From contig JAQGJB010000056.1 of the NCBI GenBank assembly GCA_028290825.1, positions 1 through 32,042 of the forward strand: a stretch of 32,042 nucleotides of DNA, read 5' to 3'. Position numbers and translations under genes: made by a program. Under the pieces are notes generated by a model. The model was given only the letters and a program-made list of their open reading frames with translations. It did no database searches and was not told the DNA's origin. Below, one piece after another: positions 3 through 24,671 of this stretch. Numbering within the stretch: the first letter of the stretch is position 1; each line of letters begins with the position of its first letter. The stretch comes from Micavibrio sp. (GTDB lineage: Bacteria; Pseudomonadota; Alphaproteobacteria; Micavibrionales; Micavibrionaceae).

Positions 3-665
3 GGCGGTTTGTCCGGCGGTGGGGGGGACCCGCTTGCAGGACTTACAGATGCCCTCCATGGTTTGACAGACGGGCTGGGCGGCGGCGGAAATGAACCCGG
101 AACACCGGACACTGACCTTACAATTCATACCGGCATTGATCTTCTGGATAACACGCTTGGCCTCCCGGACATTGCGGCCACACTTGATCCTGTCGAAAAT
201 CTGGTCGGCGATATAGACCTCGGTATCAATCTTGATACAAATGCAGTCAATGAAATTTTATCCGGTGATGTACAGGGTACGATCGACTCACTGACCGGAA
301 CAGTCACAGGTCTTATCGACCTCAACCTCTTCTTGCTGAACCCCGAACCGGGCCAGACCGCACCGCTCAGTCTGGACATCGGTAACGCCGGCTCCAGCAT
401 CACGGACATTCTCTCTGGCCTGGCCTCTCCGCTGGGCGGATCGACAACGCCATCCTGGCCTGAGGCCACAGTTTCCGGGATAACCGATACCGTGTCGTCC
501 ACAATCGATCATACACTCGGCGCAACTCTGCCCGATCCTGTCGGAATTATTACCGAAGGACTTAGCCTTGTTACAGGCGCAGGGGGCGGTTCGGCCTCCG
601 GCGGCGGGTTGCTGGGTGGACTTCTGGGCGGCGGCGGTGGCGGCCATCACGGATTATTCGGGTGA
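3..665 (+). CDS. Glycine/aspartate-rich protein, C-terminal part (5'-truncated by window edge), probable type I secretion cargo
   Basis: The frame is open to the left edge, so this is the C-terminal end of a longer protein; the in-frame TTG at 9 need not be a start. About 220 residues are visible. They are rich in Gly, Leu, Thr and Asp, with about 20 Asp, 6 Glu, no Lys, no Arg and no Cys. Poly-Gly blocks frame the segment, and the protein ends in a GGLLGG-type glycine tail with two His. A short GLTD motif repeats near the left edge. I see no RTX nonapeptides. Extreme acidity and lack of basic residues are common in proteins exported by type I systems. The stop overlaps the next gene by four bases (GTGA) and the operon continues with ABC and HlyD subunits. 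Cargo identity is therefore an inference from composition and context; no family is recognised. Confidence 0.6.
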   Translation, partial: GGLSGGGGDPLAGLTDALHGLTDGLGGGGNEPGTPDTDLTIHTGIDLLDNTLGLPDIAATLDPVENLVGDIDLGINLDTNAVNEILSGDVQGTIDSLTGTVTGLIDLNLFLLNPEPGQTAPLSLDIGNAGSSITDILSGLASPLGGSTTPSWPEATVSGITDTVSSTIDHTLGATLPDPVGIITEGLSLVTGAGGGSASGGGLLGGLLGGGGGGHHGLFG

Positions 666-2341
666 GCAAGACAATGAAAAAAACACTCATACCCGAAGGC
701 TACGGTATCAACGCTGTTCAGTTGATCGTCCCGTCTGTATTTATCGCCGTTCTCTCGCTGACTTTGCCGGTCCTGACGTTACAGGTCTATGACCGCATTC
801 TTCCCAATCCGGATTCCGGCACTCTGCCGATCCTGGTTGCGGGGGTTTGTGTCGCCGTCCTGCTTGAGATGGCCCTGCGTCTCTGCCGCGCCTATACGCT
901 GGGGTGGAGCGGGGCGGCTTATGAACACCGTCTGTCCTGTGAAGCCGTCAATCATATCCTTCGCACCAATCTCTCCACCATCAACCGTGACGGGGCCGGT
1001 GAAAACCTGAACCGCATTGCGGCCATTTCCAAGCTGCGAGAATTTCATAATGGTTATGATCTTATCACTTACACGGAACTCGCTTTCATTGTGCCTTATC
1101 TTGTGCTGATCGCCTATATCGCCGGGCCGCTGGTTCTTGTGCCTGTGGTCATTCTTGCGCTTTTTGCCCTGGTTTCTGTTGTCATGGGGAAATGGCTTAA
1201 CCGGGCCCTTGCCGCCAGAGACCGCGCCGATGACACCCGTTATGATTTCCTGATTGATGGCCTACAGGGTGTTCACACCATCAAGGCCTTCAGCCTCGAG
1301 AAACCTTTCCTGCGCCGGTACGAACGTCTTCAATATAACGCCACCGTTGCCAACTACGAAGTGACCGAGGCAACATCCGGTGTCTTCAATGCCGCAGCAG
1401 TTTTCAGCCACCTCATGCTGGCCTCCGTCATCACCATCGGGGCTTGGCGCGTTCTGGATGGCGGGATGACCTCCGGTGCGTTGATTGCCACCATTTTCCT
1501 CTCTGGTCGCGTGATGCAGCCGGTTCAGCGCGCTTTGGCGCTCTGGACCCGTTACCAGGATTATCAGGTCGCCGCCGAAAAAGTACGCAAGATTTTTGCC
1601 ATGCCACTTGCTCCACAGGGGCAGAAAATTACCACGCCCGAACCGCAACGTGCGGGAACCCTGACGCTTCAGAACATTGCCTTCGGGGATATGTTCCAGA
1701 ATATAAACCTCTCTTTGATGGCAGGCGATTGCATCCAGATTTCCGGAGCCTATGGATCGGGTAAATCGACCTTGCTGAAAATCATGGCGGGTCTTTACAT
1801 CCCCGACCACGGCAGCGTCATGATTGACGGTCGCGAGCCGATGGATATCCCGCCCCAGGCCATGATGAACCATGTCGGCCTCATATCGACCGAGGGCGCA
1901 ATCTTCCGTGGCCGTATTCGCGATAACCTGACCCGCTTCGGCAGTATCCCCGAAGATGCGGTGCGCCCCATCAGCGCCATGCTCGGGATCGAGCAGGATG
2001 TTTCGGTCCTGCCCCGCGGCTTCGACACCTGGATGGAAGGGGTGGAGCAGGATACCGTCCCCCCCGGCCTGCGCCAGCGTATCGCCATGGCCCGAATCCT
2101 TGCCACCCATCCGAAAATAATCCTGTTCGACAACGCCGAGCGCAATCTTGACCGCGAAGGCTACCGCCAGATCCACACGCTACTCGGCAGGCTGAGGTCA
2201 AAGGTCGCGCTAGTTCTCGTTGCCGAAGATAACAATATCGCAAGCCTTGCCAGCCGACATTTCCGCCTGACCCGGCGGGGACTGATCGAGCAGCCGATCC
2301 TTAACGATACGATCCTCTCATTCAGGGAAACCCGCACATGA
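662..2341 (+). CDS. Type I secretion-like ABC transporter subunit (TMD-NBD) with degenerate ATPase motifs
   Basis: This is an inner-membrane half-transporter of the type I secretion ABC family (PrtD/LapB-like). Membrane segments occupy about residues 20-280 and the nucleotide-binding domain about 330-540. Walker A is intact (GAYGSGKS, 362-369). Other motifs are altered: the Q-loop position reads T410, the signature LSGGQ reads VPPGL (466-470), the Walker B aspartate D490 is followed by N491 instead of the catalytic Glu, and the switch His is replaced by about E522. It has no N-terminal C39-like domain. The domain probably binds ATP but may not hydrolyse it. The GTG start overlaps the previous stop by four bases. 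An ATG at 674, seven bases after GGTGAG, is an equally plausible start. The stop overlaps the next ATG by four bases (ATGA). It likely forms a heterodimer with the downstream ABC subunit. Confidence 0.85.
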   Translation: MSKTMKKTLIPEGYGINAVQLIVPSVFIAVLSLTLPVLTLQVYDRILPNPDSGTLPILVAGVCVAVLLEMALRLCRAYTLGWSGAAYEHRLSCEAVNHILRTNLSTINRDGAGENLNRIAAISKLREFHNGYDLITYTELAFIVPYLVLIAYIAGPLVLVPVVILALFALVSVVMGKWLNRALAARDRADDTRYDFLIDGLQGVHTIKAFSLEKPFLRRYERLQYNATVANYEVTEATSGVFNAAAVFSHLMLASVITIGAWRVLDGGMTSGALIATIFLSGRVMQPVQRALALWTRYQDYQVAAEKVRKIFAMPLAPQGQKITTPEPQRAGTLTLQNIAFGDMFQNINLSLMAGDCIQISGAYGSGKSTLLKIMAGLYIPDHGSVMIDGREPMDIPPQAMMNHVGLISTEGAIFRGRIRDNLTRFGSIPEDAVRPISAMLGIEQDVSVLPRGFDTWMEGVEQDTVPPGLRQRIAMARILATHPKIILFDNAERNLDREGYRQIHTLLGRLRSKVALVLVAEDNNIASLASRHFRLTRRGLIEQPILNDTILSFRETRT

Positions 2342-4566
2342 CCAGCAGCTTTAAGATTACAAAAAACGAAAAAGTGCCCGCGAATGAATCCCAGCTTGAA
2401 AAGGCGCAGGCCGACCCTGTCGAGGGTTTGCTGAATGTCTTGGGCGATACCATCTGGTCTGCCCAGCGCCACCGCGAACACAATGCATGGGAAGCCTGCC
2501 TGTGCAGCCTGATCCTGGGCCTTGACCCCACCATCCGCACGGTTCAGGTCTGCGAAGCTGTGCCGTATGGATCGGAATCCCTTGACCGCGTCGGTTTTGC
2601 AAACACAATGGCCAATCTTGGCTATACATGCAAAACCATCTATACCTCGCTAAAAGATGTCGATAAGCGGATCATGCCCTGCATGTTCATTCCGCTTGAT
2701 CATCCTGAATCCCCGGCCATTCTTTTTGCCGACGGCTCCGTTTATCAGGGGAGGCAACGCAAGAACAGATCCCTGAATAACAAACAGGACCTGAAAGGAA
2801 AGGTTGTCATCTTTCGGCGCACCGATTCCCTGGACGACCAGACCTCCCGCATTTCGCGTTCAGCAACACAGTTCAGCTGGTTTCGCGCCCTTGTCGAACG
2901 TTTTCACAGTACCTCACTGAACATCCTCATCACCGGGCTGGTCCTGAATCTCATTGGCTTGACCACGCCTTTATTTATCATGCTCGTCTATGACCGTGTC
3001 ATTTCCTCGCATGCCCTGAATGTTCTACCCTGGCTGGCTGCCGGTGTCGGTATTGCCCTGATCGCTGAATGGGCGCTCCGTGCGATACGGTCTAAATCGC
3101 TGTCCTGGCTCGGCGGGCGTGTTGATAATATTGTCAGTAACATGATCTTCGATCATCTTCTCCATCTTGCGCCGTCCTATATCGAACGTGCTTCTATTCC
3201 GTCTCAGATCGCACGGATCAAGACCTTCGAATCCATCCGCGATTTCTTCAGCGGTGCAATGTTTCTGTCGGTCATGGAGCTGCCGTTCATGATTATCGCC
3301 CTGGCAGCGATTGGTTTGATTGCCGGTCCTCTGGTTATCGTCCCTATCGGCATGTCTCTGGTTTACCTCACACTGTTCTACTTTATCTGGCGCAAGGTAC
3401 GCGTCGCCATCCGCACAGCCGCGAAGGCCAGCTCCGCCCGCCAGCAATTTTCCCTTGAAACCATCGAAAAGGTCGAGGCCATACGCGGCAATGCGCTCAC
3501 CGAAATCTGGGGTGAAAAGTTCCGCGAACTTTCAGGCCGGGAAGCATTGGCGCAGTTCCAGCTCGGCTGGTACGGCATGATCGGTGAAACCTTCGCCAAT
3601 GCCCTCACCGTGATGTCCGCCGTTGCGGTAGTAACCTTCGGGGTCAGCTTTATCTGGAATGGTGAAATGACCACCGGCGGGCTTGTCGCGACGATGATCC
3701 TGGTCTGGCGTGTGCTCGGCCCGTTCTATAGCCTTTGCACCATGGTGCCGCGTCTTGAGCAGTTACGTAATTCCATCCGCCAGGTGAATGGCCTGATGGA
3801 TGTGGACACGGAGGAAATGTCCGCAGAAGGTCTGGCCCGTCCCGGCCGCCTGAAAGGCCGCGTCACCTTTTCTGCCGCGACCCTTAAATACAATACGTCT
3901 GCCGACCCGGTGATCGCCGGCCTGACACTGGACGCGGCGCCCGGCGAAATCATCGCTATAACGGGTGAAAATGGTTCCGGGAAAACTTCATTGCTGAAAA
4001 TGATCAAGGGCCTGTATCTGCCCCAGCATGGCAGCCTCCGTCTTGACGGTTACGACATGCGCCAGCTTAATCCGCACGACGTTCGCCGCAATATCGCTTA
4101 TATCCCGCAGACGCCGGATTTCTTCCCCGGCACAATCGCCGAAAACCTGCGTTTCGGGAATCCCCTGGCGACTGAAGGAGAGATCAGGCAGGCATTAGGG
4201 CAGGCCCGCGTCCTCGACGAAATCAACGCAATGCCGGACGGCCTTCAGACGATCATCGGCGGTAGCGAGGGCATTCGCCTGAACTCCACCCTTGCCGCAC
4301 GCCTGAGCATGGTCCGCGCCTATCTGCAGGACGCACCGATCATGCTGATCGATGAATTGCCCAACACCCTGTTGACCGACGAATCCGGACGGTTCCTGCA
4401 CGACACTATCATGCGGCACAAGGGAACCCAGACCGTCTTTATCGTCAGCTACCGCGAAGACTTCCTCAACATGGCCGATAAAATCGTCTTCCTGCGCCGT
4501 GGCTATGCCCCGCAATGCGACACGGGAAAAACGATGACCGAACGCCTGAAAAAATCACTCTGGTAA
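2338..4566 (+). CDS. Type I secretion-like ABC transporter subunit with N-terminal C39-like domain
   Basis: This 742-residue protein has the layout of RTX/LapB-type secretion ATPases. Residues about 30-165 resemble a C39 peptidase-like domain. The membrane domain spans about 190-470 and the nucleotide-binding domain about 505-725. The peptidase-like part lacks the usual DCG cysteine motif; the corresponding stretch is WEACLC at 51-56, so it is probably a non-cleaving substrate-docking domain. Walker A (GENGSGKT, 543-550), the Q-loop Gln (Q591) and Walker B with catalytic Glu (IMLIDE, 668-673) are present. The signature is LNSTL instead of LSGGQ (648-652), and the switch His is Y705. These losses differ from those of the preceding ABC subunit. 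The four-base ATGA overlap with that gene suggests coupled translation and pairing. Confidence 0.88.
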   Translation: MTSSFKITKNEKVPANESQLEKAQADPVEGLLNVLGDTIWSAQRHREHNAWEACLCSLILGLDPTIRTVQVCEAVPYGSESLDRVGFANTMANLGYTCKTIYTSLKDVDKRIMPCMFIPLDHPESPAILFADGSVYQGRQRKNRSLNNKQDLKGKVVIFRRTDSLDDQTSRISRSATQFSWFRALVERFHSTSLNILITGLVLNLIGLTTPLFIMLVYDRVISSHALNVLPWLAAGVGIALIAEWALRAIRSKSLSWLGGRVDNIVSNMIFDHLLHLAPSYIERASIPSQIARIKTFESIRDFFSGAMFLSVMELPFMIIALAAIGLIAGPLVIVPIGMSLVYLTLFYFIWRKVRVAIRTAAKASSARQQFSLETIEKVEAIRGNALTEIWGEKFRELSGREALAQFQLGWYGMIGETFANALTVMSAVAVVTFGVSFIWNGEMTTGGLVATMILVWRVLGPFYSLCTMVPRLEQLRNSIRQVNGLMDVDTEEMSAEGLARPGRLKGRVTFSAATLKYNTSADPVIAGLTLDAAPGEIIAITGENGSGKTSLLKMIKGLYLPQHGSLRLDGYDMRQLNPHDVRRNIAYIPQTPDFFPGTIAENLRFGNPLATEGEIRQALGQARVLDEINAMPDGLQTIIGGSEGIRLNSTLAARLSMVRAYLQDAPIMLIDELPNTLLTDESGRFLHDTIMRHKGTQTVFIVSYREDFLNMADKIVFLRRGYAPQCDTGKTMTERLKKSLW

Positions 4567-4577
4567 AGGAAAAGATC

Positions 4578-5918
4578 ATGACTTCTATAGCGATGAAACA
4601 TTCGTCCTCAAAAGCCAGGCAGCTGCGTTTCCTGTCGCAATCCGCCCGGCTGGAGGAAGCCGTGAATCCGCGTATTGTTACCATGACCTCCTGGGCCGTT
4701 TCGCTGACTGTCGTCGCCTTTCTGGGCTGGGCCAGCGTCACCAGCATCAATGAAATTACGCGCGGTCCCGGCGAAGTCATCCCGCAGGGCTTCCAGCAGA
4801 TCGTCCAGCATCTGGAAGGCGGTCTGGTCCGTGAAATCCGTGTGACCGAAGGCGATGTGGTTGATAAAGGACAGGTTCTCATGGTTCTCGACGGGGCAGG
4901 GACCCAGGAAGATCTTGGCCGTTCCCTCTCAGAAAAAGTTTTCCTCGAGCTGCAGCGTGAACGTCTGAAAGCCTACCTGGAAAACCGAAAACCCGATTTC
5001 ACCCCGTGGCAGTCCGCGAACACGGCCCTTGTCGCCGAACAGAAAAAAATCTTCGACACCATGCTGGATTCCAATGCCAAGGAACGGAACATCATCATGG
5101 ATCAGATCGCCCAGAAAAAACAAAGCATCTCCACCCTCGCCGTCAGGTCGGATTCAACACGTAAAAACCTGGCCCTGACCGAAGACATGTACAGCCGCCG
5201 GAAAGGTCTGCATGACCAGGGTTACATCTCCGACATGAAGCTTTTGGAAAGTGAACAGGAACTGAATTCTCTGCGCGGTGATACAGCCTCGGTAAACAGC
5301 CAGATAGGTCAGGCACGCCAGGAAATTCAGGAATACCAGTCCCGCCTGAAATCCCTCGACGCCAAAAACCGTGAACAGGCCTACCAGCAACTGAACGCCA
5401 TCGAAGGCCAGCTGGCCCAGAACAGCGAAACGGTCCAGAAACTGAACAAACGTTCAGGTCGCCTGGCCATCACTTCACCGGTTCATGGTCTGGTTAAGGG
5501 CCTGACGGTTAATACCATCGGCGGCGTGATTCAGCCAGGGCAGCAATTGATGGAAATCGTTCCGCTTGACCGCAAACTGGAAGTCGAAGCCCGTATCCCG
5601 CCGCAACAGATCGGCCATATCAAGGTGGATATGCCGGTTCAGGTGAAGGTCAGCACCTATGACTTCGCGCGTTACGGCTCCATCACAGGTCATGTGGAAA
5701 CCATATCCCCGACCACCTTCGAGGGGGAACGGGGCGAGCGTTTCTACCGCGTACGGATCGGTCTTGACCGCAACTATGTCGGTCCGGACCAGAAAAGAAA
5801 CATTATCGTGCCCGGCATGACTGTGATGGCCGATATCGTCACCGGCGACAAGACGATCCTGTCCTACCTCTTGAAACCGATCCACAGATCCCTGCAAACA
5901 TCCTTTACGGAGAGATAA
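4578..5918 (+). CDS. HlyD-family periplasmic adaptor of a type I secretion system
   Basis: This is a membrane-fusion protein that links the inner-membrane ABC pair to an outer-membrane TolC-like channel. I chose the ATG at 4578 (446 residues) because AAGGA at 4566-4570 lies seven bases before it. The longer open frame upstream would run back into the ABC gene. One membrane segment lies at about residues 33-55, followed by a biotinyl/lipoyl-like part with the typical EGGLVREI and EGDVV motifs. A long Gln/Glu/Lys-rich coiled coil spans about 110-300, and a beta-barrel region with the ITSPVHGLVKGL motif follows. Length and order match HlyD/LapC/PrtE proteins. The gene follows the ABC gene by 11 bases. 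No TolC homologue is visible in the window. Confidence 0.92.
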   Translation: MTSIAMKHSSSKARQLRFLSQSARLEEAVNPRIVTMTSWAVSLTVVAFLGWASVTSINEITRGPGEVIPQGFQQIVQHLEGGLVREIRVTEGDVVDKGQVLMVLDGAGTQEDLGRSLSEKVFLELQRERLKAYLENRKPDFTPWQSANTALVAEQKKIFDTMLDSNAKERNIIMDQIAQKKQSISTLAVRSDSTRKNLALTEDMYSRRKGLHDQGYISDMKLLESEQELNSLRGDTASVNSQIGQARQEIQEYQSRLKSLDAKNREQAYQQLNAIEGQLAQNSETVQKLNKRSGRLAITSPVHGLVKGLTVNTIGGVIQPGQQLMEIVPLDRKLEVEARIPPQQIGHIKVDMPVQVKVSTYDFARYGSITGHVETISPTTFEGERGERFYRVRIGLDRNYVGPDQKRNIIVPGMTVMADIVTGDKTILSYLLKPIHRSLQTSFTER

Positions 5919-5920
5919 AT

Positions 5921-6430
5921 ATGCTCATGCAAAACCGTGGCCGCGAACTCGATTTCATGGTGTCCGCGACCTTCCAGTTCAGAACGATGGAGGAGGCGCA
6001 TACCCTCTCTCTTTATCTCGCCAATTGTTTCCCGGAACCTGAGCGCGTGGTGAACGGGTTGACCGAACTGATGTTCAACGCCATTGAACACGGCAATCTC
6101 GGCATCGGCTACCAGATGAAAGCCGAACTCAGCCAGCAGAACCTGCTGGCAACCGAAGTGGCGCAGCGTCTGCAAAGCCCGGTTCTGGGCGAACGTGTGG
6201 CCGAGGTCACCATGGCCCGTAAGGACGGCGGCATCTATATTGTCATCACTGACCAGGGCGAGGGCTTCGACTGGAAAGATCACATCAAAATCAATCCGTC
6301 GCGGGCCGGAAAAACCTCGGGCAGGGGGATCGCCATGGCGAATTCCATAAGCTTTGATAAGCTGACCTACAATGAAAAGGGTAATACCGCAGTGGCCTTT
6401 GTTGCCGAAAGTTCAGATTTCAGCTGGTGA
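5921..6430 (+). CDS. RsbW-like HATPase_c ATP-binding protein (anti-sigma/serine kinase type)
   Basis: This 169-residue soluble protein consists essentially of one GHKL ATPase domain. The N-box is E49-L-M-F-N53-A-I-E-H-G-N. The G1 box is DQGEG at 111-115, and the G2-like loop is SGRGIAMA at 133-140. It has no dimerisation-histidine domain, no membrane segment and no receiver domain, which fits anti-sigma-factor kinases of the RsbW/SpoIIAB type or other standalone regulatory ATPases. An insert at about residues 66-95 separates the N-box from the next strand. The ATG is two bases after the hlyD-like stop, and the purine-rich GGAGAGA overlapping that stop is the likely ribosome site. It is therefore co-expressed with the secretion system and may regulate it. 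No anti-anti-sigma partner or sigma factor is visible nearby. The domain call is firm; the biological role is inferred. Confidence 0.8.
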   Translation: MLMQNRGRELDFMVSATFQFRTMEEAHTLSLYLANCFPEPERVVNGLTELMFNAIEHGNLGIGYQMKAELSQQNLLATEVAQRLQSPVLGERVAEVTMARKDGGIYIVITDQGEGFDWKDHIKINPSRAGKTSGRGIAMANSISFDKLTYNEKGNTAVAFVAESSDFSW

Positions 6431-6540: not shown

Positions 6541-7662
6541 ATGAGTTCCCGGCCGCAAATGACCCGAAAAATCCTGCCCTTCATTGTATTGACCTTAATC
6601 CTCGTCTCCGGGGTCTGGCTTGCCACCACGGCGTCGGCAAAGGATGAGCCAGCGCCGAAAGCCCCGGCTGCGGTGCCTGTAAAAATCGTCCCTGTCGCCC
6701 GCCGCGATATGCCCGTGACGATCAGGGCTGTCGGTACGGTCACCCCGTTTCAGACCGTCGCCATCAAATCCCGCCTCGACTCCCAGATCATGCAAGTTAA
6801 ATTTCAGGATGGTGACGCCGTAAAAAAAGGCGATACGCTCTTTGTCCTCGATGACCGCGTGCTGAAATCCCAACTCACCCAGGCCCAGGCCAACCTGCAA
6901 CGTGACAAAGCCCAGCTTCAGAACGCGAAACAGCAAAACGAACGCACCCAGAAACTGGCCCAGCAGGGTTACGCCACCGGCACAACCAGCGACGAAACCA
7001 AAGCCGCCGTTGAATCAGGCATTGCCACAGTTGCGGCAGATCAGGCCGCTATTGATAACATTCGCGTTCAGCTCGGCTACACCAACATCACCGCACCGAT
7101 TGACGGACGTACCGGAACCATCAACGTCACCGTCGGTAACAACGTTAAGGCAAACGACACCACCGCCCTCGTCACCATCAACCAGATCAAGCCGATCCTG
7201 GTTCAGGTCGCCTTGCCCCAGAGTAATTTTGATGCCGTGCGCCTGGCGATGGCGCAGGGTGATGTGCCGGCCTCCGCCAAACGCGACGGCAGTGACGCCA
7301 TCAGCGCAGGAAAACTTCAATATCTTGATAATGCCATCGACCAGGGAACTGGCACTTTTGTAACCCGCGCCGCTTTCCCAAATGTTGATGAAAGCCTGTG
7401 GCCGGGAATGCTGGTAAACCTTTCCATCACGCTGAAGGAAGACAAGGGCGTTCAGGTCGTTCCCGATGTCGCCATTCAACACTCCCCGACCGGCGATTTC
7501 GTCTTTGCGATTATCGGCGGAAAATCTGTGAAAAAACCTGTCGCCGTCGCCCGGATGCAGGACGGCTTCGCCGTCATCGCCAAGGGTCTGGAAGATACGG
7601 ATCAGGTCGTCACCGACGGCCAGATGTCTCTCAAGGACGGCAGCGTGGTCAGTACGCAATAA
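6541..7662 (+). CDS. RND efflux periplasmic adaptor (MdtA-like)
   Basis: This membrane-fusion protein of a resistance-nodulation-division pump has 373 residues. An N-terminal hydrophobic segment at about 11-33 acts as signal or anchor. The lipoyl half-motif (VKFQDGDAVKKGDTLFVLDD) is followed by an alpha-hairpin with Gln/Lys heptads, then the lipoyl return motif with TAPIDGRTG, which is characteristic of MdtA/AcrA-type adaptors, and a C-terminal membrane-proximal domain. The ATG at 6541 has no convincing Shine-Dalgarno. An internal ATG at residue 7 is possible, also without one. The permease gene follows after 17 bases, so the two form an operon. The inverted repeat directly upstream may control it. 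The substrate cannot be read from the sequence. Confidence 0.92.
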   Translation: MSSRPQMTRKILPFIVLTLILVSGVWLATTASAKDEPAPKAPAAVPVKIVPVARRDMPVTIRAVGTVTPFQTVAIKSRLDSQIMQVKFQDGDAVKKGDTLFVLDDRVLKSQLTQAQANLQRDKAQLQNAKQQNERTQKLAQQGYATGTTSDETKAAVESGIATVAADQAAIDNIRVQLGYTNITAPIDGRTGTINVTVGNNVKANDTTALVTINQIKPILVQVALPQSNFDAVRLAMAQGDVPASAKRDGSDAISAGKLQYLDNAIDQGTGTFVTRAAFPNVDESLWPGMLVNLSITLKEDKGVQVVPDVAIQHSPTGDFVFAIIGGKSVKKPVAVARMQDGFAVIAKGLEDTDQVVTDGQMSLKDGSVVSTQ

Positions 7663-7679
7663 CCCAAGAGTAGTTTTTA

Positions 7680-10600
7680 ATGGTCCTCTCCGATTTCTGC
7701 ATCCGCCGTCCGGTCTTTACGATTCTTCTCATGGCGGCGCTTCTCGTTGCCGGTGTTGCCGGATATCAGACCCTTGCGGTCAGTGCGCTGCCCCGCGTCG
7801 ATTTTCCAACCATTCAGGTTTCCGCCAGCCTTCCGGGGGCCAGCCCGGAAACCATGGCGTCCTCCGTCGCGACGCCTCTGGAACGGCAATTCTCGACCAT
7901 CTCCGGCATTTCCTCGATGAATTCATCCAGCTACCTGGGTAATACGTCCATCACCCTGCAATTCGATCTGAACCGCAGCATCGACGGGGCTGCGCTTGAT
8001 GTGCAGACCGCAATTTCAACCACACTCCGTAAACTGCCGAAGGAAATGACCACGCCGCCGTCCTTCCGCAAGGTCAACCCCGCCGATGCACCCGTTTTGT
8101 TTATCGGTGTATCCTCCGACACCATGCCGTTGTCCGAGGTCAATGAATACGCCGACACCATGATGGCCCAGCGTATCTCCATGGTTCCCGGTGTCGCTCA
8201 GGCCATTATTTACGGGGAACGTAAATATGCCGTCCGCATCCAGGTCGACCCTAACAAACTCGCCGCACAGGGTCTGGGCTTCAACCAGGTGCAGCAAGCC
8301 GTCGCCGCCGCCGCCTCGAACGCCCCGTTGGGCAGTATCTACGGCCCCAAACAGCTTTTTAACATCAGCATGGAAGGCCAGCCCAAAGACGCCGCCGGTT
8401 TCCGCGACCTTATCGCCGTCTGGAAAAACGGCGCACCGATCCGGCTTGGCGATCTCGGCACCGTTGTCGATGATGTGCAGGATACTCACCAGGCCGGTTT
8501 CCTGAACGACAAACCTTCCATCGTAATCGCGATCCAGCGTCAGCCAGACGCCAACACTATCGAAGTCGTAAAACAGATCCGCGAGCTTCTGCCCAAATTC
8601 AAGGACCAGCTTCCAGCCTCGATCCAGATCACGCCTATGTTCGACCGTTCGGTCGCCATCCAGAACTCCGTCCATGATGTGCAGTTCACACTTTTCATCA
8701 CCTTCGCCCTCGTCGTTCTGGTGATCTATTTATTCCTGGGTAATGTCCGCGCCACACTGATCCCCGCGCTCGCTGTGCCGCTTTCTATTGTCGCCACCTA
8801 TGCGGGTATGGCAGCGCTCGGTTTCTCCATAAACAACGTATCCTTGCTGGCGCTCACGCTTTGCGTTGGCTTCGTCGTCGATGACGCCATTGTGATGCTC
8901 GAAAACATCGTCCGCCATATAGAGGAGGGAATGAAACCCCTCGACGCCGCCTTCAAAGGCTCGAAGGAAATTGGCTTCACGATTATTTCCATGACCGTGT
9001 CGCTGATCGCCGTGTTCATTCCGGTCCTGTTCATGGGCGGCATCGTTGGCCGCCTGTTCCGCGAATTCGCCGTCACCATATCCATCGCCATCATGTTCTC
9101 CGGTCTCATTTCCCTGACGCTTACGCCGATGCTGTGCGGGCGCTTCCTGAAGGGCGAGGCAGGTCACAGCGGACGTATTTTTAACTGGGTCCAGGACCTC
9201 TATGTCTCCAGCCTCGCGGTTGTTCTGCGCTTCCGTCTGGTCACGCTGATCGCAACATTTGTCGTTCTCGGCGTTTCCGTCTGGCTGTTCGTCATTTCCC
9301 CGAAAGGTTTCTTCCCGCAGGAAGACACCGGCTTCATCCAGATCAGCACCGAAGCCGCCCAGGATATTTCCTACGATGCCATGCTGATCAAACAAAAGGC
9401 GGCCGCGGATATAATCAAGGCCGATCCGGCCATCTTTAATGTTTTCTCCGCGCTCGGCGGCGGGCGCGGCACTTTGAACTCCGGCCGCATGTTTGTCGGT
9501 CTGAAACCCAAGAACGAACGTGCGCCCATGTCAGACGTCGTGCAGGGCTTGCGCAAGAAACTTGCAAAAATCGAAGGCATGAAAGTCTATATGCAGCCGG
9601 TTCAGAATATCCAGATCGGTGGCCAGCAGGCAAAAAGCCAGTACATCTATTCAATGCAGGCGGGCGACCTTGACCAGCTCTACGGCTGGTCTGAAAAACT
9701 GAAGGATGCCCTCGGTAGCGAATCGGGTTTCCAGGACGTCAACTCCGACCTGCAGTTAAAAAGCCTCCAGGCCATCGTCACCGTGGACCAGCAAAAAGCC
9801 GCCAGTGTCGGTATAACCTATGATGACGTTCGTCAGGCCCTCTACGGCGCTTACGGTACAGGCCAGGTCGCAAGCCTCTACACCGACGCCAACGATTACG
9901 AAGTCATCTTCGAGGTCGCCCCGCAATACCAGAAAACCATTGATGACATTGGCCAGATTTATATTTCGGGCAGCGCCGCCGGGGGCCGTGTTGTCGCCAT
10001 GAACTCGATCGCCACAATAACGCGGGGTGAAGCTTCTCTCTCTGTCAACCACCAGGGACAGCTCCCGTCGGTCAGCCTCTCTTTCAACCTTTCCCCCGGC
10101 GTTTCCTTGAGCGACGCAGTCCAGCGTATCTCCTCGATCCGCCAGAAACTCCAGGTGCCCGATTCAATCACCGGCAGTTTCCAGGGTACCGCCCAGGCAT
10201 TCCAGGCCTCCGCGCAGGGGCAGGGCTTACTCCTCCTGCTTACGATCGTTGTGATCTACATTATCCTCGGCATGTTGTATGAAAGCTTTATCCACCCGAT
10301 CACCATCCTTTCCGGCCTGCCTTCCGCCGGGCTGGGGGCGATCCTCACACTGATGCTGTTCAAAATGGATGTCAGTGTAATCTCGATCATCGGTATCGTT
10401 CTGCTGATCGGCATTGTGAAGAAGAACGCCATAATGATGATTGACTTCGCCATTGGCGCGCGGGCTGAGGGGAAAACCGCTGTAGAAGCCATTTCCGAGG
10501 CCTGCCGCCTGCGCTTCCGCCCCATCATGATGACCACAATGGCCGCGATTTTCGGCACATTGCCGATCGCAATGGGTATTGGTGACGGTGCCGAACTACG

Positions 10601-10736
10601 TCAGCCTCTTGGTGTGGCCGTTGTTGGTGGCTTGCTGACGTCACAATTGTTGACGTTGTTCATCACGCCTGTCGTCTACGTCTACCTTGAAAATCTGAGC
10701 ACACGGTTTAAACGGAAACCTGCTCAGGCCGAATAA
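7680..10736 (+). CDS. RND multidrug efflux permease (MdtB/MdtC-like)
   Basis: This 1018-residue inner-membrane proton/drug antiporter has full family length. The N-terminus is typical (SDFCIRRPVFTILLMAALL, first membrane helix), followed by the VSALPRVDFPTIQVS strand, PLERQF, and the repeated porter domains. The fourth membrane helix carries the proton-relay acidic pair in GFVVDDAIVMLENI. The second half repeats the fold and ends with the MMTTMAAIFGTLPIA loop and last helices. It most resembles MdtB/MdtC rather than AcrB. A single permease accompanies the adaptor, so it probably works as a homotrimer with an unlinked TolC-like channel. Its stop lies 15 bases from the stop of the convergent oxidoreductase gene. 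Confidence 0.94.
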   Translation: MVLSDFCIRRPVFTILLMAALLVAGVAGYQTLAVSALPRVDFPTIQVSASLPGASPETMASSVATPLERQFSTISGISSMNSSSYLGNTSITLQFDLNRSIDGAALDVQTAISTTLRKLPKEMTTPPSFRKVNPADAPVLFIGVSSDTMPLSEVNEYADTMMAQRISMVPGVAQAIIYGERKYAVRIQVDPNKLAAQGLGFNQVQQAVAAAASNAPLGSIYGPKQLFNISMEGQPKDAAGFRDLIAVWKNGAPIRLGDLGTVVDDVQDTHQAGFLNDKPSIVIAIQRQPDANTIEVVKQIRELLPKFKDQLPASIQITPMFDRSVAIQNSVHDVQFTLFITFALVVLVIYLFLGNVRATLIPALAVPLSIVATYAGMAALGFSINNVSLLALTLCVGFVVDDAIVMLENIVRHIEEGMKPLDAAFKGSKEIGFTIISMTVSLIAVFIPVLFMGGIVGRLFREFAVTISIAIMFSGLISLTLTPMLCGRFLKGEAGHSGRIFNWVQDLYVSSLAVVLRFRLVTLIATFVVLGVSVWLFVISPKGFFPQEDTGFIQISTEAAQDISYDAMLIKQKAAADIIKADPAIFNVFSALGGGRGTLNSGRMFVGLKPKNERAPMSDVVQGLRKKLAKIEGMKVYMQPVQNIQIGGQQAKSQYIYSMQAGDLDQLYGWSEKLKDALGSESGFQDVNSDLQLKSLQAIVTVDQQKAASVGITYDDVRQALYGAYGTGQVASLYTDANDYEVIFEVAPQYQKTIDDIGQIYISGSAAGGRVVAMNSIATITRGEASLSVNHQGQLPSVSLSFNLSPGVSLSDAVQRISSIRQKLQVPDSITGSFQGTAQAFQASAQGQGLLLLLTIVVIYIILGMLYESFIHPITILSGLPSAGLGAILTLMLFKMDVSVISIIGIVLLIGIVKKNAIMMIDFAIGARAEGKTAVEAISEACRLRFRPIMMTTMAAIFGTLPIAMGIGDGAELRQPLGVAVVGGLLTSQLLTLFITPVVYVYLENLSTRFKRKPAQAE

Positions 10737-19263: not shown

Positions 19264-22200
19264 ATGTCGTCGTTCCAGATTGCCTTCCTTCACAGAATAA
19301 TCATAATCCTGACCTTCGCGGTCGGGATAGTAACGATTTGCGTGATGACCGGCTGGCTGACTGGCAACCCCGATCTTCTTCTGCAATTCAGTCCAAATTA
19401 TTCGCCGATGAAATTTAACAGCGCCATCGGCCTCTTATCCTGCGCCATTGCCGTTGCCTGCTATGACCGGCGATCGAGGTTGCTGATCCTCATTCCGTCT
19501 TTTTTTGCCTTTATAATTTCTATTCTGACCGGCATTGAAAATTTCATCGGCCTTGACCTTGCCATCGATGATATTTTTGCGAAACCTTTTGTGCAGACCC
19601 ATGGCATCATTACCGGACGAATGGGCATTTACACAAATATCGCAATGTTTATCACCAGCATCACGCTTCTTTATTATGGCCTTATGCGCGGCCGAAAAAA
19701 TTTCCACCCCGTTCTGATGGCACTGGGTGGTAGCATTTCTTTCTCACTCGGGGCCATTCCCTTACTGGGCTATGCCAGCGGCCTGAATGGCGTCGATACG
19801 TGGCAACAGGCCACAGTAATGGCTGTCATGACGGCCCTATGCTTCGTTTTTCTGAATCTCGCCGTTATTCTGTGTGCCTGGCATAATAACCAACGCCTGC
19901 CGCTCTGGCTGCCTATACCCGTCATGGTCGGCATGCTGACCATCTCTATCTCGGTATGGCAGGCGACAATCACTTACCAGGACCAGCAGAATGCAATTCT
20001 GGTCCGTAACGAAACCCGTCTGATCGAACAGGTGACAACGCAGTATATGAACGAACTCTACGGTGCGTTGAACCGTATCGCTTCGCGCTGGGTTGCTGCG
20101 GGTGGAACGCCGAAAAAATTATGGCAGGCAGATGCCGAAAGCTACCTTAAAAGTTATCCGGTTATCCTCGGAATTGCCTGGGTTGACGAAGATTCAATTA
20201 TTCGCTGGCTCGCGGCCAGGTCCGGCAATAATAAGGGTCTGAACTTTAATCTGGAATCCGAACCGAAACGCGCGAGCGCCCTTCATAAAGCAATCCAAAC
20301 CCGCCAGCCCCAATCAACCGAAACCCTCACACTCCTGAACGGTGGCATCGGGTTCAACCGTTACTTCCCTTTATATATCGGTAACCGCTATAATGGTGTG
20401 ATGTCGGCCGGCTTCCGGGTCAGCGACATGTTCGAATATCTTCTTGTCACAAAAGATCTGACCGATTTTGATATGACGATAACCGAAGGCGATCAGGTTA
20501 TTTTCAGCAACGCTCCCGTCGATGACGGAACTTATAAAAAATGGCGGCAGACCGGCTCTATCAAAGTTGCGGACAAGGAATGGAATATAACGGTCGAACC
20601 TAATAAATCGTTTATTCAGGAGCATAAATCCCCCGTCCCGCTGATTACGCTTCTGGCGGGCCTCTTTACTTCCATACTGTTTACGCTTGCGACCTATCTC
20701 GGCCTGAAGGCGAACCAGCTTGCCAATACCCTGCTTGTTTCCAGATCCCAGCTGCAGCTTTTCGTCAAACATGCTCCGGTGGCCCTGGCGATGTATGATC
20801 GCGACCTCAATTTTATCGCGGTCAGTGACCGGTGGCTGAAAGATAACGGGCTTGATAGCCGGGAAATCATCGGCAAATATCATTTCTCTATCCTGCCCAA
20901 GGCACCCCAATATTGGAAAGATGTCCATCAACGCTGCCTGATGGGTGCGGTTGAGCGCTGTGACGAGGAATGCTTCACCATGCGTGACGGCACCCAGGTC
21001 TGGGTGCGGTGGGAGGCCCGGCCCTGGTACGATATTGACGGCACGATCGGCGGGATCATCGTTTTCTCCGAACTGATCACCGAACGCATCGAGAGTAAAA
21101 ATAACCTCGACAAGCAACAACGTTTCCTGGAGCTGGTTCTCGCAGCCTCGCGGGAGGGTGTTGCCGATTACAATGTGACCACCGAAAAAGTCTGGTTCTC
21201 TCCGCACTTCAAGGAAATGCTCGGCTATGAGGATCATGAAGTTCCCAATACCGTGCAGGGCTGGCGCGACCTGATTTATCCCGAAGACGGCGCACGTTCG
21301 ATCCGGATGATGGAAGATTATAACTCCGGCAAAATCCCTGAATTCCAGGTCATTGAACGTTATCTGCATAAGGACGGTTCGACCCGGTGGATCTTTACCC
21401 GCGCCCTGCATGAAAAGGATGAATTTGGTCATCCTATCCGTCTGGTCCTCGTTTTCAGTGATATCAGTGAACTGAAAGACGCACAGGCACGGGCTGAGGA
21501 AGCGACACGCCTTAAATCCGATTTCCTCGCAAATATGAGCCACGAAATCCGCACCCCGATGAACGGCATTATCGGCATGTCGAACCTGCTGCTCGAAACC
21601 AGCCTCGATTCCCGCCAGCGTCACTTTGCTGAAACCGTCACCAATTCCGCCGATGCATTGATGCAGATTATCAACGACATTCTCGATTTCTCGAAAATCG
21701 AGGCCGGAAAAATGGAGGTCGAAAATATCCCGTTTGATTTCCAGCTGATCTGCGAAGAAATCTCCGAAGTCATGGCCATCAAGGCGCGTGATAAAAAGAT
21801 CGAGCTTTTCCTGCGTTACGCCCCTGGTTCAGAACGCCGCTTCATCGGTGATCCGGGCCGTATCCGCCAGGTTCTGTTTAACCTTGCCGGGAACGCAATT
21901 AAGTTCACCGATACGGGCCATGTCCTAATTGATGTCAGTCCGCAACAGACCGACCACAACCACTATACTTTCAATATCCGGATCAAAGACACCGGCGTCG
22001 GCATTCCCGCCGACAAGGTTGAGCGTATGTTCGGAAAATTCAACCAGGCCGACAGCTCCACCACGCGCCGCTTCGGCGGCACAGGCCTCGGCCTTGCAAT
22101 TTCGAAACAACTGGTCGAACTGATGGGTGGCGCCATCGGCTTTGAGAGCGTCGAGGGGCAGGGGTCCACGTTCTGGTTCACCCTTCCGCTGCAGATGGCT

Positions 22201-23490
22201 GAACAGCCTGCTGAAAATTCCATTGATGCCAGACGCGCTGAATTGCAGGGCAAAAAAGTTCTTGTCCTCGACGACAGCCCCGTGGCCCGCGATATCGCTG
22301 CGGAACAACTAAGCGTCATGGGTATGGAAGTGACTGCGCTTGAAAATCCCGAAGAGGCACTGGATTACCTGAAAGCTGCGGCGGCTGAAGGAAAACCTTG
22401 CGAATTCGCCATTATCGATCATCAGATGCCAGGCATGAGCGGTCCTGAATTTATGGAATCTCTCCGTCTCTATCCGGCTCTGAAAAATCTGCAGGCCATT
22501 CTCCTGACCTCGCAGCCCTATCGCGGCGACGCCCGCAAGGTGCAGCAGGCTGGCTTCCAGGGTTATCTCACCAAACCCGTTCATCCCGGCGAATTGCCCG
22601 CCATGCTGGCCATGATGCACGAAATGCGCGAACAGGGACGCGAACCGAAACTCGTCACACGTTACAGCCTGCAGGAAAATTATTCCGGCACGGCTGACCG
22701 CCGCACCAAGCCGGTGTTCAGTAATGCCAGAGTTCTTCTTGCCGAAGATAACATCGTCAACCAGGAGGTGATGATGTCCCTGCTTGGCAATTACGACATC
22801 AAACCGACCGTTGCCGATGACGGCAGGCAGGCCCTGAACCTCATCGAGACAAAAGAATTCGACCTCGTCCTGATGGATTGCCAGATGCCTGAAATGGACG
22901 GGTTCGAGGCAACGGCAAAAATCCGTGCCTTCGAACGCGACACCAAACGCGATGCCGTTAATATTGTTGCACTGACCGCCAACGCCATGAAGGGCGACCG
23001 GGAACGGTGCCTTGCCATCGGCATGAACGATTACTTAAGCAAGCCTATCAAAGAACAGGAACTGGAATCAATGCTGCGTAAATGGCTGTCGCTCCGTAAA
23101 GTCGGCGAAAGGGCAGTGACGCAACCGCCATCACCTGAAAAACCCGACCAACCGCAACACGGCCAGGTGGTCGACGAGGAAATCGTCACAAAGCTGCGTA
23201 GCGCGACGAGAGAAAAATTTAGCTCCCTGATCTCGATCTTCATCAGCAACGGCGAACAGTTGATGAAAACCCTTGAGGATTCAATTGCCCAAGGCAACGT
23301 CGCGGAAATCGGGCGTGCCACCCATGCGCTGCGGTCCACCACGGGTCAGATGGGCGCGGTCACACTGCAGCATCTGGTCATGCAGATCGAAGAACACGCG
23401 AAGAATGGCAATATGTCCGAAATTACTGGGTTGTACGGAGATGCCAGGAACCAGTGGTATCAGGTGCGCGCCTATTTCGAGCAGGAATAA
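19264..23490 (+). CDS. Hybrid sensor histidine kinase (membrane sensor, CHASE-like, PAS x2, HisKA, HATPase, REC x2, Hpt)
   Basis: This 1408-residue inner-membrane phosphorelay kinase has about seven N-terminal helices (about 10-235) and a CHASE-like extracytoplasmic domain (about 240-455) closed by a helix at about 458-480. Two PAS domains follow (about 495-610 and 620-740). The phospho-accepting H760 lies in [15 protein letters not shown]. The ATPase has N-box, DTGVGI and GGTGLGL motifs. REC1 has D1052 and REC2 has D1205. The C-terminal Hpt domain has H1354 (RATHALRS). All phosphorelay residues are present, so signal can pass His-Asp-His within one chain. No output domain is present. The signal is unknown. 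The gene converges on the Hpt-REC-REC operon with only 14 bases between stops, which suggests that those proteins are its partners. Confidence 0.93.
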
Positions 23491-23506
23491 AGCCTGCGCG
23501 TTTTTT
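23481..23506 (+). terminator. Probable intrinsic terminator at the end of the hybrid kinase
   Basis: GCAGG (23481-23485) pairs with CCTGC (23493-23497) around a loop that contains the stop codon. Three bases later a run of six T follows (23501-23506). The stem is short, so confidence is moderate. A weaker AT-rich 8-base inverted repeat (GAATAAAG with CTTTATTC) overlaps it and extends into the convergent gene. Confidence 0.5.
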
Positions 23507-24668
23507 ATTCTTTATTCAGAGCTTTCATACAACGCGACAGCAACTTATCCGCTACAAACGGCTTCGAGACGTAATCGGTCGCACCGGCATTTTTCGCGGC
23601 CCTGATATCGTCTTCGTCTTTGCTCGCGCTCAGGATGATGACCGGAATATTACGTGTGTCATCCCGCGCCTTTAATCCTTCCAAGACCCCAAATCCGTCC
23701 ATCCCCGGCATACGCAGGTCAAGGAGGATCAGGTCCGGAATATTCTTCTGCGCCTCGGCCAGCGCCGCAACGCCGTTATCCGCAAGGATCACATTCAATC
23801 CATGGCGCATGAATTTGTGATGGAGCAGCGACAGGATCAACTGGTCGTTATCCGCGACCAGGATCGTGCGGCTGAGGGTGCGCCTCAGTTTTTCAACCCG
23901 GGTGACGAGGTCGTTAATATCAATCGGCTTGACGATATAATCCATCGCCCCGGAATGCAGTGCCCCGACGACATCATGCTGCTTTGCCGATGCGGTCAGC
24001 ATCAGAACAGGAATTTTTGCCAGTTCAGAATCCTGTTTCAGACTGCGCAGCACATCATGTCCGCTTGGTCCCGGCATATTGATATCGAGGATAATCAGAT
24101 CCGGCTGCCGTTCCCTGGCTGCCATCAAGGCCTCGGTGCCGTTATGCGCTGTCATCACCCCGAAATTGCGTTGCGTCAGTTTGAGCGACACCAGTGCAGT
24201 CAGGCTGCGGTCATCATCGACAACAAGGATATTGATCCGCTTTTTACCGTCCAGCGTCGCCGGTGCGGGTTTCTCCGTCAGGACCAGGTCGGAATCGGGC
24301 AGGGCGGCCAGCGTCTGCGCTTTCTCACACGCATCGGCCAGTTCATTGAGGGCGCTCTGATACTCCGTCAAAGGATCGCCCAGCAACAACTCATCATCTT
24401 TTAGCGATTTTGAAAGCTTCTCGGCCAGTAATTCGGTCCTGCGCCCCGCATTGGTCACCTCCGGAAATCCGAATGTCGCGCCCGATCCCGCAAGCCCGTG
24501 CGAAAGACTTTGCATTTTGGCAAGGTCTTCGCGGTCCACCGGCGAGTTCAAAGTTTTCTCTGCCGCGCTTCTGATATGGGCCTCATTGTCGCGCAACCGT
24601 TCAACATAGTCGGCCCGCAATGCCGAATACGTTTCCTCGAAACCGGTCATACGGCCATCGTCGCTCAT
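23505..24668 (-). CDS. Hpt-REC-REC response regulator-like protein, downstream paralogue
   Basis: This 387-residue cytosolic protein has an N-terminal Hpt domain (about 10-125; H57 in LSHGLAGSG) and two receiver domains with phospho-acceptors D195 (ILDINMPG) and D317 (LLDLRMPG). Both receivers keep the Thr/Ser and the C-terminal Lys (DYIVKP, DYVSKP). There is no DNA-binding, GGDEF or enzymatic output. In the second receiver the usual acidic DDD reads ADND. It is clearly similar along its whole length to the gene 3 bases upstream on the same strand, which indicates tandem duplication. It probably acts as phosphotransfer intermediate or phosphate sink for the convergent hybrid kinase. The start is the ATG at 24668; M7 is an alternative. 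Confidence 0.9.
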   Translation of the reverse strand: MSDDGRMTGFEETYSALRADYVERLRDNEAHIRSAAEKTLNSPVDREDLAKMQSLSHGLAGSGATFGFPEVTNAGRRTELLAEKLSKSLKDDELLLGDPLTEYQSALNELADACEKAQTLAALPDSDLVLTEKPAPATLDGKKRINILVVDDDRSLTALVSLKLTQRNFGVMTAHNGTEALMAARERQPDLIILDINMPGPSGHDVLRSLKQDSELAKIPVLMLTASAKQHDVVGALHSGAMDYIVKPIDINDLVTRVEKLRRTLSRTILVADNDQLILSLLHHKFMRHGLNVILADNGVAALAEAQKNIPDLILLDLRMPGMDGFGVLEGLKARDDTRNIPVIILSASKDEDDIRAAKNAGATDYVSKPFVADKLLSRCMKALNKE

Positions 24669-24671
24669 CGC

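Follow-up and report, generated by a model that had tools for sequence, protein, structure and literature searches.

Can a type I secretion exporter still work when both of its ATP-binding cassette (ABC) subunits have lost the LSGGQ signature motif, and what part would ATP then play? This question is raised by contig JAQGJB010000056.1 of Micavibrio sp., a stretch of 32,042 bases (hereafter the window) which constitutes one entire contig of a 2.46-Mb draft genome. Its plus strand carries two tandem ABC genes, designated here ABC1 and ABC2, in an operon with the gene of a HlyD-family adaptor. From the genes present, the motifs lost, the pattern of conservation, purifying selection in two congeners, co-occurrence and fusion, all described below, the pair is probably, although by no means certainly, an old and specialised heterodimer exporting an acidic repeat protein; one of its sites would hold ATP, the other would hydrolyse it slowly or not at all, and the cycle is probably gated.

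Motif losses in the window pair

Both open reading frames (ORFs) are intact at the coordinates given in a first-pass annotation of this DNA. The motif residues have been set by alignment with HlyB (for ABC1), P-glycoprotein (for ABC2) and five type I transporters from this genome and its relatives, giving the following features.

662–2341, plus strand: ABC1, transmembrane domain and degenerate nucleotide-binding domain, 559 residues (PF00664, PF00005)
1742–1771, plus strand: ABC1 Walker A, SGAYGSGKST, K368 and S369 retained (alignment, residue numbering)
1889–1891, plus strand: ABC1 Q-loop position, Gln replaced by T410 (alignment)
2057–2071, plus strand: ABC1 signature, LSGGQ replaced by VPPGL (residues 466–470), which would build ATP site 2 in trans
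2132–2134, plus strand: ABC1 catalytic Glu position, occupied by N491 (alignment including HlyB)
2225–2227, plus strand: ABC1 switch His position, occupied by E522 (alignment including HlyB)
2338–2341, plus strand: ATGA, four-base overlap of the ABC1 stop and the ABC2 start (ORF coordinates)
2338–4566, plus strand: ABC2, N-terminal extension (aligning to the LssB model), transmembrane domain and degenerate nucleotide-binding domain, 742 residues
3961–3990, plus strand: ABC2 Walker A, TGENGSGKTS, K549 and T550 retained (alignment)
4108–4110, plus strand: ABC2 Q-loop Q591, retained (alignment)
4279–4293, plus strand: ABC2 signature, LSGGQ replaced by LNSTL (residues 648–652), which would build ATP site 1 in trans
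4354–4356, plus strand: ABC2 catalytic Glu E673, retained (alignment)
4450–4452, plus strand: ABC2 switch His position, occupied by Y705 (alignment including P-glycoprotein)

Each residue named in the first-pass annotation was borne out by the HlyB, P-glycoprotein and type I transporter alignments. Judged as canonical ABC ATPases, ABC1 is without LSGGQ, catalytic Glu and switch His, and ABC2, in which D672 is also present, is without the signature and the His. The alignment further displays a gap in ABC1 at the aromatic stretch shown by most relatives, which we take to be the A-loop, and an altered stretch in ABC2, ELPNTLLTD, presumably the one that follows Walker B.

A review describes the signature as contacting the ATP bound by the partner subunit (PMC7756269), and the losses are therefore to be counted per composite site and not per subunit. 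Site 1, formed by the ABC1 Walker motifs and the ABC2 signature, has neither the Gln nor the catalytic Glu, and both its His and its signature are gone. Site 2, formed by the ABC2 Walker motifs and the ABC1 signature, retains the Lys, Thr, Gln and Glu and is missing the switch His and the Ser of the signature. The first-pass description of a "complementary" loss of ATPase motifs cannot be upheld on this count. The pair also fails to conform to a heterodimer with one fully canonical composite site, since LSGGQ occurs in neither subunit in 60/60 scored pairs and 19/19 pairs from a phylum search (79/79 in total).

Extent, motif state and selection of the family

Searches at three depths delimit the family. 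Among 58 genomes (the organism's own and 57 relatives), ABC1 orthologues occur in 18 of the relatives at 31–54% identity, one being a 39% fragment, and non-orthologous transporters among the matches listed reach at most 28% identity to ABC1. An ABC2 profile gave 19 matches of at least 713 bits in the same 19 of 58 genomes, followed by a match of 445 bits, and no genome (0/58) carried only one of the two subunits. This reverse test, from ABC2 to ABC1, was confined to the 58 genomes; loci L066–L083 and L114–L153 had been chosen because ABC1 was present. A class-wide search with an ABC1 profile returned at least 41 matches above 484 bits in at least 40 of 385 genomes (next match 402 bits), and a phylum search at E ≤ 1e-115 found the family in at least 52 of 398 genomes, 19 of the matches lying in open frames longer than 1300 residues; both searches scored three candidates per genome, so that these counts are lower bounds. 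The resulting set of 63 loci comprises the window, 18 from relatives, four from Azospirillum plasmids and 40 class-wide loci, the last being 39 of the 41 matches (the other two are the window and one already included) and the 402-bit match. One further class-wide match of 396 bits, cut by a contig end, lies outside the set.

Both subunits are encoded at all 63 loci (selected for ABC1), of which L083, L120 and L141 are incomplete. At 58 loci the genes are split, adjacent and on the same strand, with a 4-nucleotide overlap in 47/58; in the window, the ATGA overlap would imply translational coupling. At the remaining five, on four Azospirillum plasmids (L062, L063, L064 and L065) and at L146, the subunits are fused into one chain. 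The 20 phylum loci include 12 double-ABC fusions of 1306–1484 residues (12/12 of the long frames sampled), seven split pairs and one locus, L188, where only a single 832-residue ABC1 was read and which is excluded from the 19 phylum pairs. The fused chains of about 1300–1480 residues (four Azospirillum plasmids, L146, L172–L183) are spread over Alphaproteobacteria and another class of the phylum. The tree shows three distinct groups, one each for ABC1, ABC2 and the canonical transporters (support 1.0, 1.0 and 0.885), so the split between the two subunits looks old. The heterodimer proposed in the first-pass annotation is thus putative and well supported at the genetic level, by co-occurrence, overlap and fusion. 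Pairing of each subunit with a canonical ABC protein encoded elsewhere was considered, and fusion and the 4-nucleotide overlap speak against it. A contig search with one subunit as query also yielded 23 distant ABC loci, none of which exceeded 196 bits with either family profile, and these are not members. Two loci contain broken frames, which may be draft errors or true breaks: HlyD is present as two ORFs in L076 (11524–12975), and ABC1 is interrupted in L138 (6325–8019).

The degree of motif loss was scored in 60 pairs, the 63 loci minus the three incomplete ones. Within the same taxonomic order, LSGGQ is retained in 13/13 canonical type I transporters, 12 of which also matched the text patterns for the Glu and His, and the family's loss in 79/79 pairs exceeds what accident or sequencing error would produce. 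Caution is called for in that exact LSGGQ is not universal in other kinds of ABC protein: among distant ABC frames it occurs in 9/26, and the SGG core is missing in 7/26. The ABC1 signature of the family keeps its second Gly in 58/60 pairs and has Pro in place of Ser in 48/60, and the ABC2 signature keeps the Ser in 14/60 and the second Gly in 30/60; the fused phylum chains show only a mild loss, their ABC2 signature reading LSxGF in 12/12. The catalytic residues differ by group. Outside the window's wider clade (35 pairs), the Lys, Ser/Thr, Gln, Glu and His are all present in ABC2 of 29 pairs and in ABC1 of eight. The corresponding counts are 5/9 and 0/9 in the sister group and 1/16 and 0/16 in the window's own clade, where 15 of the 16 pairs have no switch His in either subunit. 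In six pairs of this clade (L070–L073, L075 and L077), which group together with support 1.0 in a concatenated-pair tree, ABC2 is also without the Walker A Ser/Thr and the Q-loop Gln; one of them, L073, has the catalytic Glu in neither subunit, with Asp in ABC2.

Loss of the switch His had been entertained as a rule of the family and was rejected, the His being kept in most outside pairs and its loss being derived and clade-specific. Outside the wider clade it is present in ABC1 of 20/35 pairs and in ABC2 of 31/35, and the four pairs lacking it in ABC2 lie at two separate places in the tree, which indicates that it has been lost more than once. The ABC1 switch His column of L064 is cut off and was counted as not His; three sister plasmids show Ser. 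The first-pass annotation had named mostly canonical homologues as evidence that would overturn its idea, and had proposed checking whether the homologues always co-occur and keep the same substitutions. Co-occurrence and the altered signatures hold throughout, and it is in the switch His, mostly kept in ABC2 outside the clade, that the homologues depart from the window pair.

Selection on the pair is purifying in the two congeners compared. In these genomes, with 97.5% protein identity, a comparison made without the window's own copy, dN/dS (NG86) is 0.018 for ABC1, 0.016 for ABC2 and 0.002 for the ABC2 nucleotide-binding domain, values which are estimates given a dS of 0.77–0.84. The relative conservation of the domains is also informative. 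The nucleotide-binding domain is more conserved than the transmembrane domain in 76/78 pairs of canonical controls and in 590/595 comparisons of ABC2 outside the clade, against 1/120 within the window's clade (transmembrane domain 0.655, nucleotide-binding domain 0.536), where the transmembrane domain is ahead in 119/120. This inversion holds with two other domain boundaries, and the sister group is intermediate, the nucleotide-binding domain being ahead in 27/36 pairs. At matched transmembrane identity of 0.55–0.75, the ABC2 nucleotide-binding domain is ahead in 0/100 pairs of the clade, 0/3 of the sister group and 5/5 outside. The ABC2 pattern reads as a relaxed catalytic demand with the structural role kept.

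The operon and its putative cargo

Three further genes of the window flank the pair.

3–665, plus strand: C-terminal part of a putative secreted substrate, an acidic/Gly-rich repeat protein (frame open to the contig edge; ORF 9–665)
4578–5918, plus strand: HlyD-family type I secretion adaptor, 446 residues (TIGR01843, 391 bits; cut-off 208.65; ORF opens at 4515)
5921–6430, plus strand: HATPase_c_2 protein, 169 residues (HATPase_c_2 domain match)

The window retains the C-terminal 220 residues of the upstream protein, with one repeat core, DPVENLVGDID. A related protein of 589–1123 residues is encoded 5' of ABC1 at 17 other loci (14 of the 18 that came from relatives, together with L114, L115 and L118), as matched by a profile of the N-terminal 130 residues built from nine members. 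The 17 copies contain 14–26% Asp and Glu and 0.2–1.3% Lys and Arg; 12 of them show an N-terminal stretch like KLDADQYxAEDLDGVTES in a pattern search. Repeats occur around DPVEDLVGDID, and the C-termini, alike by eye, end near GLFG. A Pfam scan of seven full-length members left six without any match and gave one weak match under the cut-off. As a protein family in its own right, it is very acidic (about 1% Lys and Arg) with alike ends, and is represented by L066 6249–8972 and 16 further loci. Outside the clade, an ORF rich in Asp, Gly, Thr and Asn by composition lies at 27/35 loci, some of these ORFs being short or perhaps spurious. At the four Azospirillum loci the neighbours are annotated as Ig-like proteins, and the one at L062, which was scanned, carries cadherin, Big and RTX repeats. 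Considering the large repeat-protein genes beside the pair, its likely job is to export a large surface protein, the upstream protein being a substrate candidate by position and composition. In two congeners a mechanosensitive-channel-like gene lies 5' of the substrate gene (L066 5153–6040, L067 4868–5755), and the copy tested, that of L066, is MS_channel_2nd.

The adaptor well exceeds its TIGR01843 cut-off. A TolC-like channel is absent from the window proteins that were scanned; such channels are often encoded elsewhere. Near eight of the relatives' loci there is a cluster of ORFs of which the one tested is a TolC-like OEP.

Directly 3' of HlyD (−82 to +33 nucleotides), a receiver-HATPase-type protein or a hybrid histidine kinase is encoded at 23/24 loci with visible downstream DNA. 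These derive from the 25 pairs of the window's clade and sister group, 22 being counted by script and L076 by gene map; L082 has no two-component gene downstream of HlyD, and L078 ends there with no visible gene. By the same profile, such a gene follows HlyD in 1/35 loci outside the wider clade (L147, a hybrid kinase), a count that may have missed kinases dissimilar to the profile, and in which the DNA of at least three loci (L131, L135 and L145) stops close to HlyD. The receiver-HATPase family numbers 21 proteins, 19 of which, including two of the window's genus, have 306–352 residues with an extra N-terminal part; Pfam shows a receiver domain in the three members tested. The two without this part are the HATPase_c_2 protein of the window and the 186-residue protein of L083 (4161–4721), for which reason a missing receiver domain was rejected as a peculiarity of the window.

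Elsewhere in the window, a 1408-residue CHASE/PAS hybrid histidine kinase with Hpt (19264–23490) is followed on the opposite strand by two Hpt-receiver-receiver proteins (23505–25826). An RND efflux pair lies 3' of the operon at 6541–10736. RND efflux genes are also found downstream of the operon at L066 (15384), L067 (16332), L062 (14413) and L064 (14384), although these are only about 26–33% identical to the RND pair of the window.

Known systems, a working model and its rivals

Both subunits belong to the type I ABC exporter kind, with PF00664 and PF00005 in each and LssB, HlyB and PrtD as the best NCBIfam models, all below the curated cut-offs. Against LssB (TIGR03375), HlyB (TIGR01846) and PrtD (TIGR01842), ABC1 scores 311, 258 and 218 bits and ABC2 424, 297 and 224 bits, where 693, 726 and 510 are needed. 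The split pairs L070 and L123 are also below these cut-offs, and the fused L146 exceeds two of them, matching in two stretches and probably by summing both halves. LssB is the closest model for both subunits, ABC2 aligning from residue 50 onward to model position 2; the difference lies in the score of the single chains and in the LSGGQ that the 13 canonical transporters of the order keep. Among solved structures, HlyB is the best match of ABC1 both by sequence and when the ABC1 model is used in a fold search, and P-glycoprotein is the best sequence match of ABC2, with HlyB lower. The models of the single chains are weak (pLDDT averaging 68.8 and 57.8, from alignments of five rows), and the fold search resolves nothing finer than a HlyB/PCAT-like exporter. 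HlyB is a homodimer, and differs from the window pair in having the LSGGQ, Glu and His all present.

Type I systems with two different ABC subunits are already known. The MARTX subunits RtxB and RtxE, which work with a HlyD-like adaptor, are both required for export and have been suggested to form a heterodimer (PMC3034196, PMC4316617), and another paper describes two ABC subunits in one locus for NHLP bacteriocin export (PMC6959600). The first-pass statement that type I secretion ATPases are normally canonical homodimers overlooks these cases. The likeness to MARTX is by description; there the ABC genes flank the adaptor gene, whereas the order in the present family is ABC-ABC-HlyD or a fusion. 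The NHLP models (TIGR03796 and TIGR03797) give 200 and 174 bits for ABC1 and 211 and 185 bits for ABC2, where the cut-offs are 853 and 709. Asymmetric ATP sites are likewise known from TAP, TM287/288, TmrAB, CFTR and Pdr5, where one site stays canonical, unlike in the 79 pairs described here, mild as the loss is in the fused phylum chains. Site 1 of Pdr5 is described as having E to N and H to Y replacements and LNVEQ for LSGGQ (PMC7756269). A review of tripartite transport names degenerate heterodimers such as TmrAB, with no RtxE in its available text (PMC8277102), and the available passages of a Micavibrio genome paper describe another hlyB locus, with no mention of the present one (PMC3189940). 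Family-wide loss of both signatures, and a clade in which both sites fail, were not found in the open-access literature searched, as far as its text was available and with most subscription papers lying outside it.

In the working model, ABC1 and ABC2 would be the unlike halves of a single type I exporter, fused in some lineages, which pairs with the HlyD encoded next to it and with a TolC-like channel, encoded near some loci, and whose cargo would be the acidic repeat protein encoded directly upstream. Site 1 would hold ATP without hydrolysing it. Site 2 would bind ATP and, being without its switch His and facing a Ser-less signature, hydrolyse it slowly at best; as the window pair retains the Gln and Glu of this site, slow hydrolysis is the likelier case there. 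Binding of ATP would open the gate and slow turnover would reset the exporter, the movement of the long chain perhaps being aided by other forces, such as the proton-motive force and folding outside the cell, and the operon-borne two-component proteins of the clade would probably turn the system on. A slow, gated or holding ATP cycle, as the first-pass annotation envisaged, is plausible. The six-genome branch suggests itself as the place to look for an absence of hydrolysis. More tentatively, and we would not expect it to hold, the exporter of the clade, most clearly in this branch, may not depend on ATP hydrolysis as its driving force: binding of ATP would only gate or hold, a two-component signal would release, and proton-motive force or outside folding would move the acidic substrate.

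In TmrAB, substrate is moved by ATP binding and hydrolysis resets the transporter (PMC7205462), and HlyB has been reported to require ATP hydrolysis for an early step (PMC5018854). The latter source also reports that the proton-motive force acts early in HlyA export and that extracellular calcium-driven folding aids the export of CyaA, not of HlyA. In HlyB carrying the switch His mutation H662A, ATP is bound and not hydrolysed, and no substrate appears at the surface (PMC5018854). Together, the HlyB, TmrAB and CyaA/HlyA data make a binding-gated exporter, slowly reset or non-hydrolysing, the most interesting reading. Several observations weigh against it. A pair without the His might, like HlyB H662A, not export at all. 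ABC1 is less telling than ABC2 in its domain conservation, the nucleotide-binding domain being ahead in 12/120 clade pairs and in only 247/595 outside. When the clade is compared with outsiders, the ABC2 nucleotide-binding domain is still the more alike part in 491/560 pairs. The HATPase_c_2 protein of the window is without the N-terminal half of most relatives, so that gating is least well founded for the window itself.

An ordinary asymmetric heterodimer, in which site 2 would be a working ATPase with a divergent signature and Tyr for His, and which would pump like TAP, TM287/288 and TmrAB, appears rather improbable, yet it has several points in its favour. The window pair keeps K549, T550, Q591, D672 and E673, most outside ABC2 subunits keep all five residues, the second Gly of the ABC1 signature persists nearly throughout, and the fused phylum chains have LSxGF in ABC2; in MRP1, moreover, the His of site 2 is replaceable by Gln or Asn (PMC7756269). 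This reading has to contend with the Pro that replaces Ser, in most pairs, in the signature opposite site 2, with the six clade pairs whose ABC2 lacks the Gln and the Walker A Ser/Thr, and with the inverted conservation of the ABC2 domains in the clade. The same source describes the degenerate site of human full-length exporters as always one and the same.

The loss of catalytic residues, combined with two-component genes in nearly every visible operon of the wider clade, would also suit a pair which is no longer a transporter and acts as an ATP-binding sensor or scaffold for these two-component proteins. This is unlikely: within ABC2 it is the transmembrane domain that is conserved best, the operon still includes HlyD and a substrate-like repeat protein, and the cluster with a TolC-like OEP lies near eight relatives' loci. 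Pseudogene decay or sequencing error, which the first-pass annotation had listed as a possible refutation, could be seen in the interrupted ABC1 of L138, the split HlyD of L076 and one stop inside the ABC2 match of genome G024 (L083). It is nevertheless very improbable as an account of the pair: the relatives' frames are open at 31–54% identity, dN/dS is 0.016–0.018 in the two congeners, and the same kind of motif loss recurs in many genomes. The specialised heterodimeric exporter remains the preferred reading.

The family described here is a widespread secretion branch, present in at least 52 of 398 genomes of the phylum, whose single chains are claimed by no NCBIfam model tested and which often lies beside large repeat-protein genes. 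It touches on the question of how far ATP hydrolysis powers type I secretion, at each step or at the start alone. Ranging from near-canonical to apparently non-hydrolysing members, this natural and conserved family would allow that question to be tested with existing proteins.

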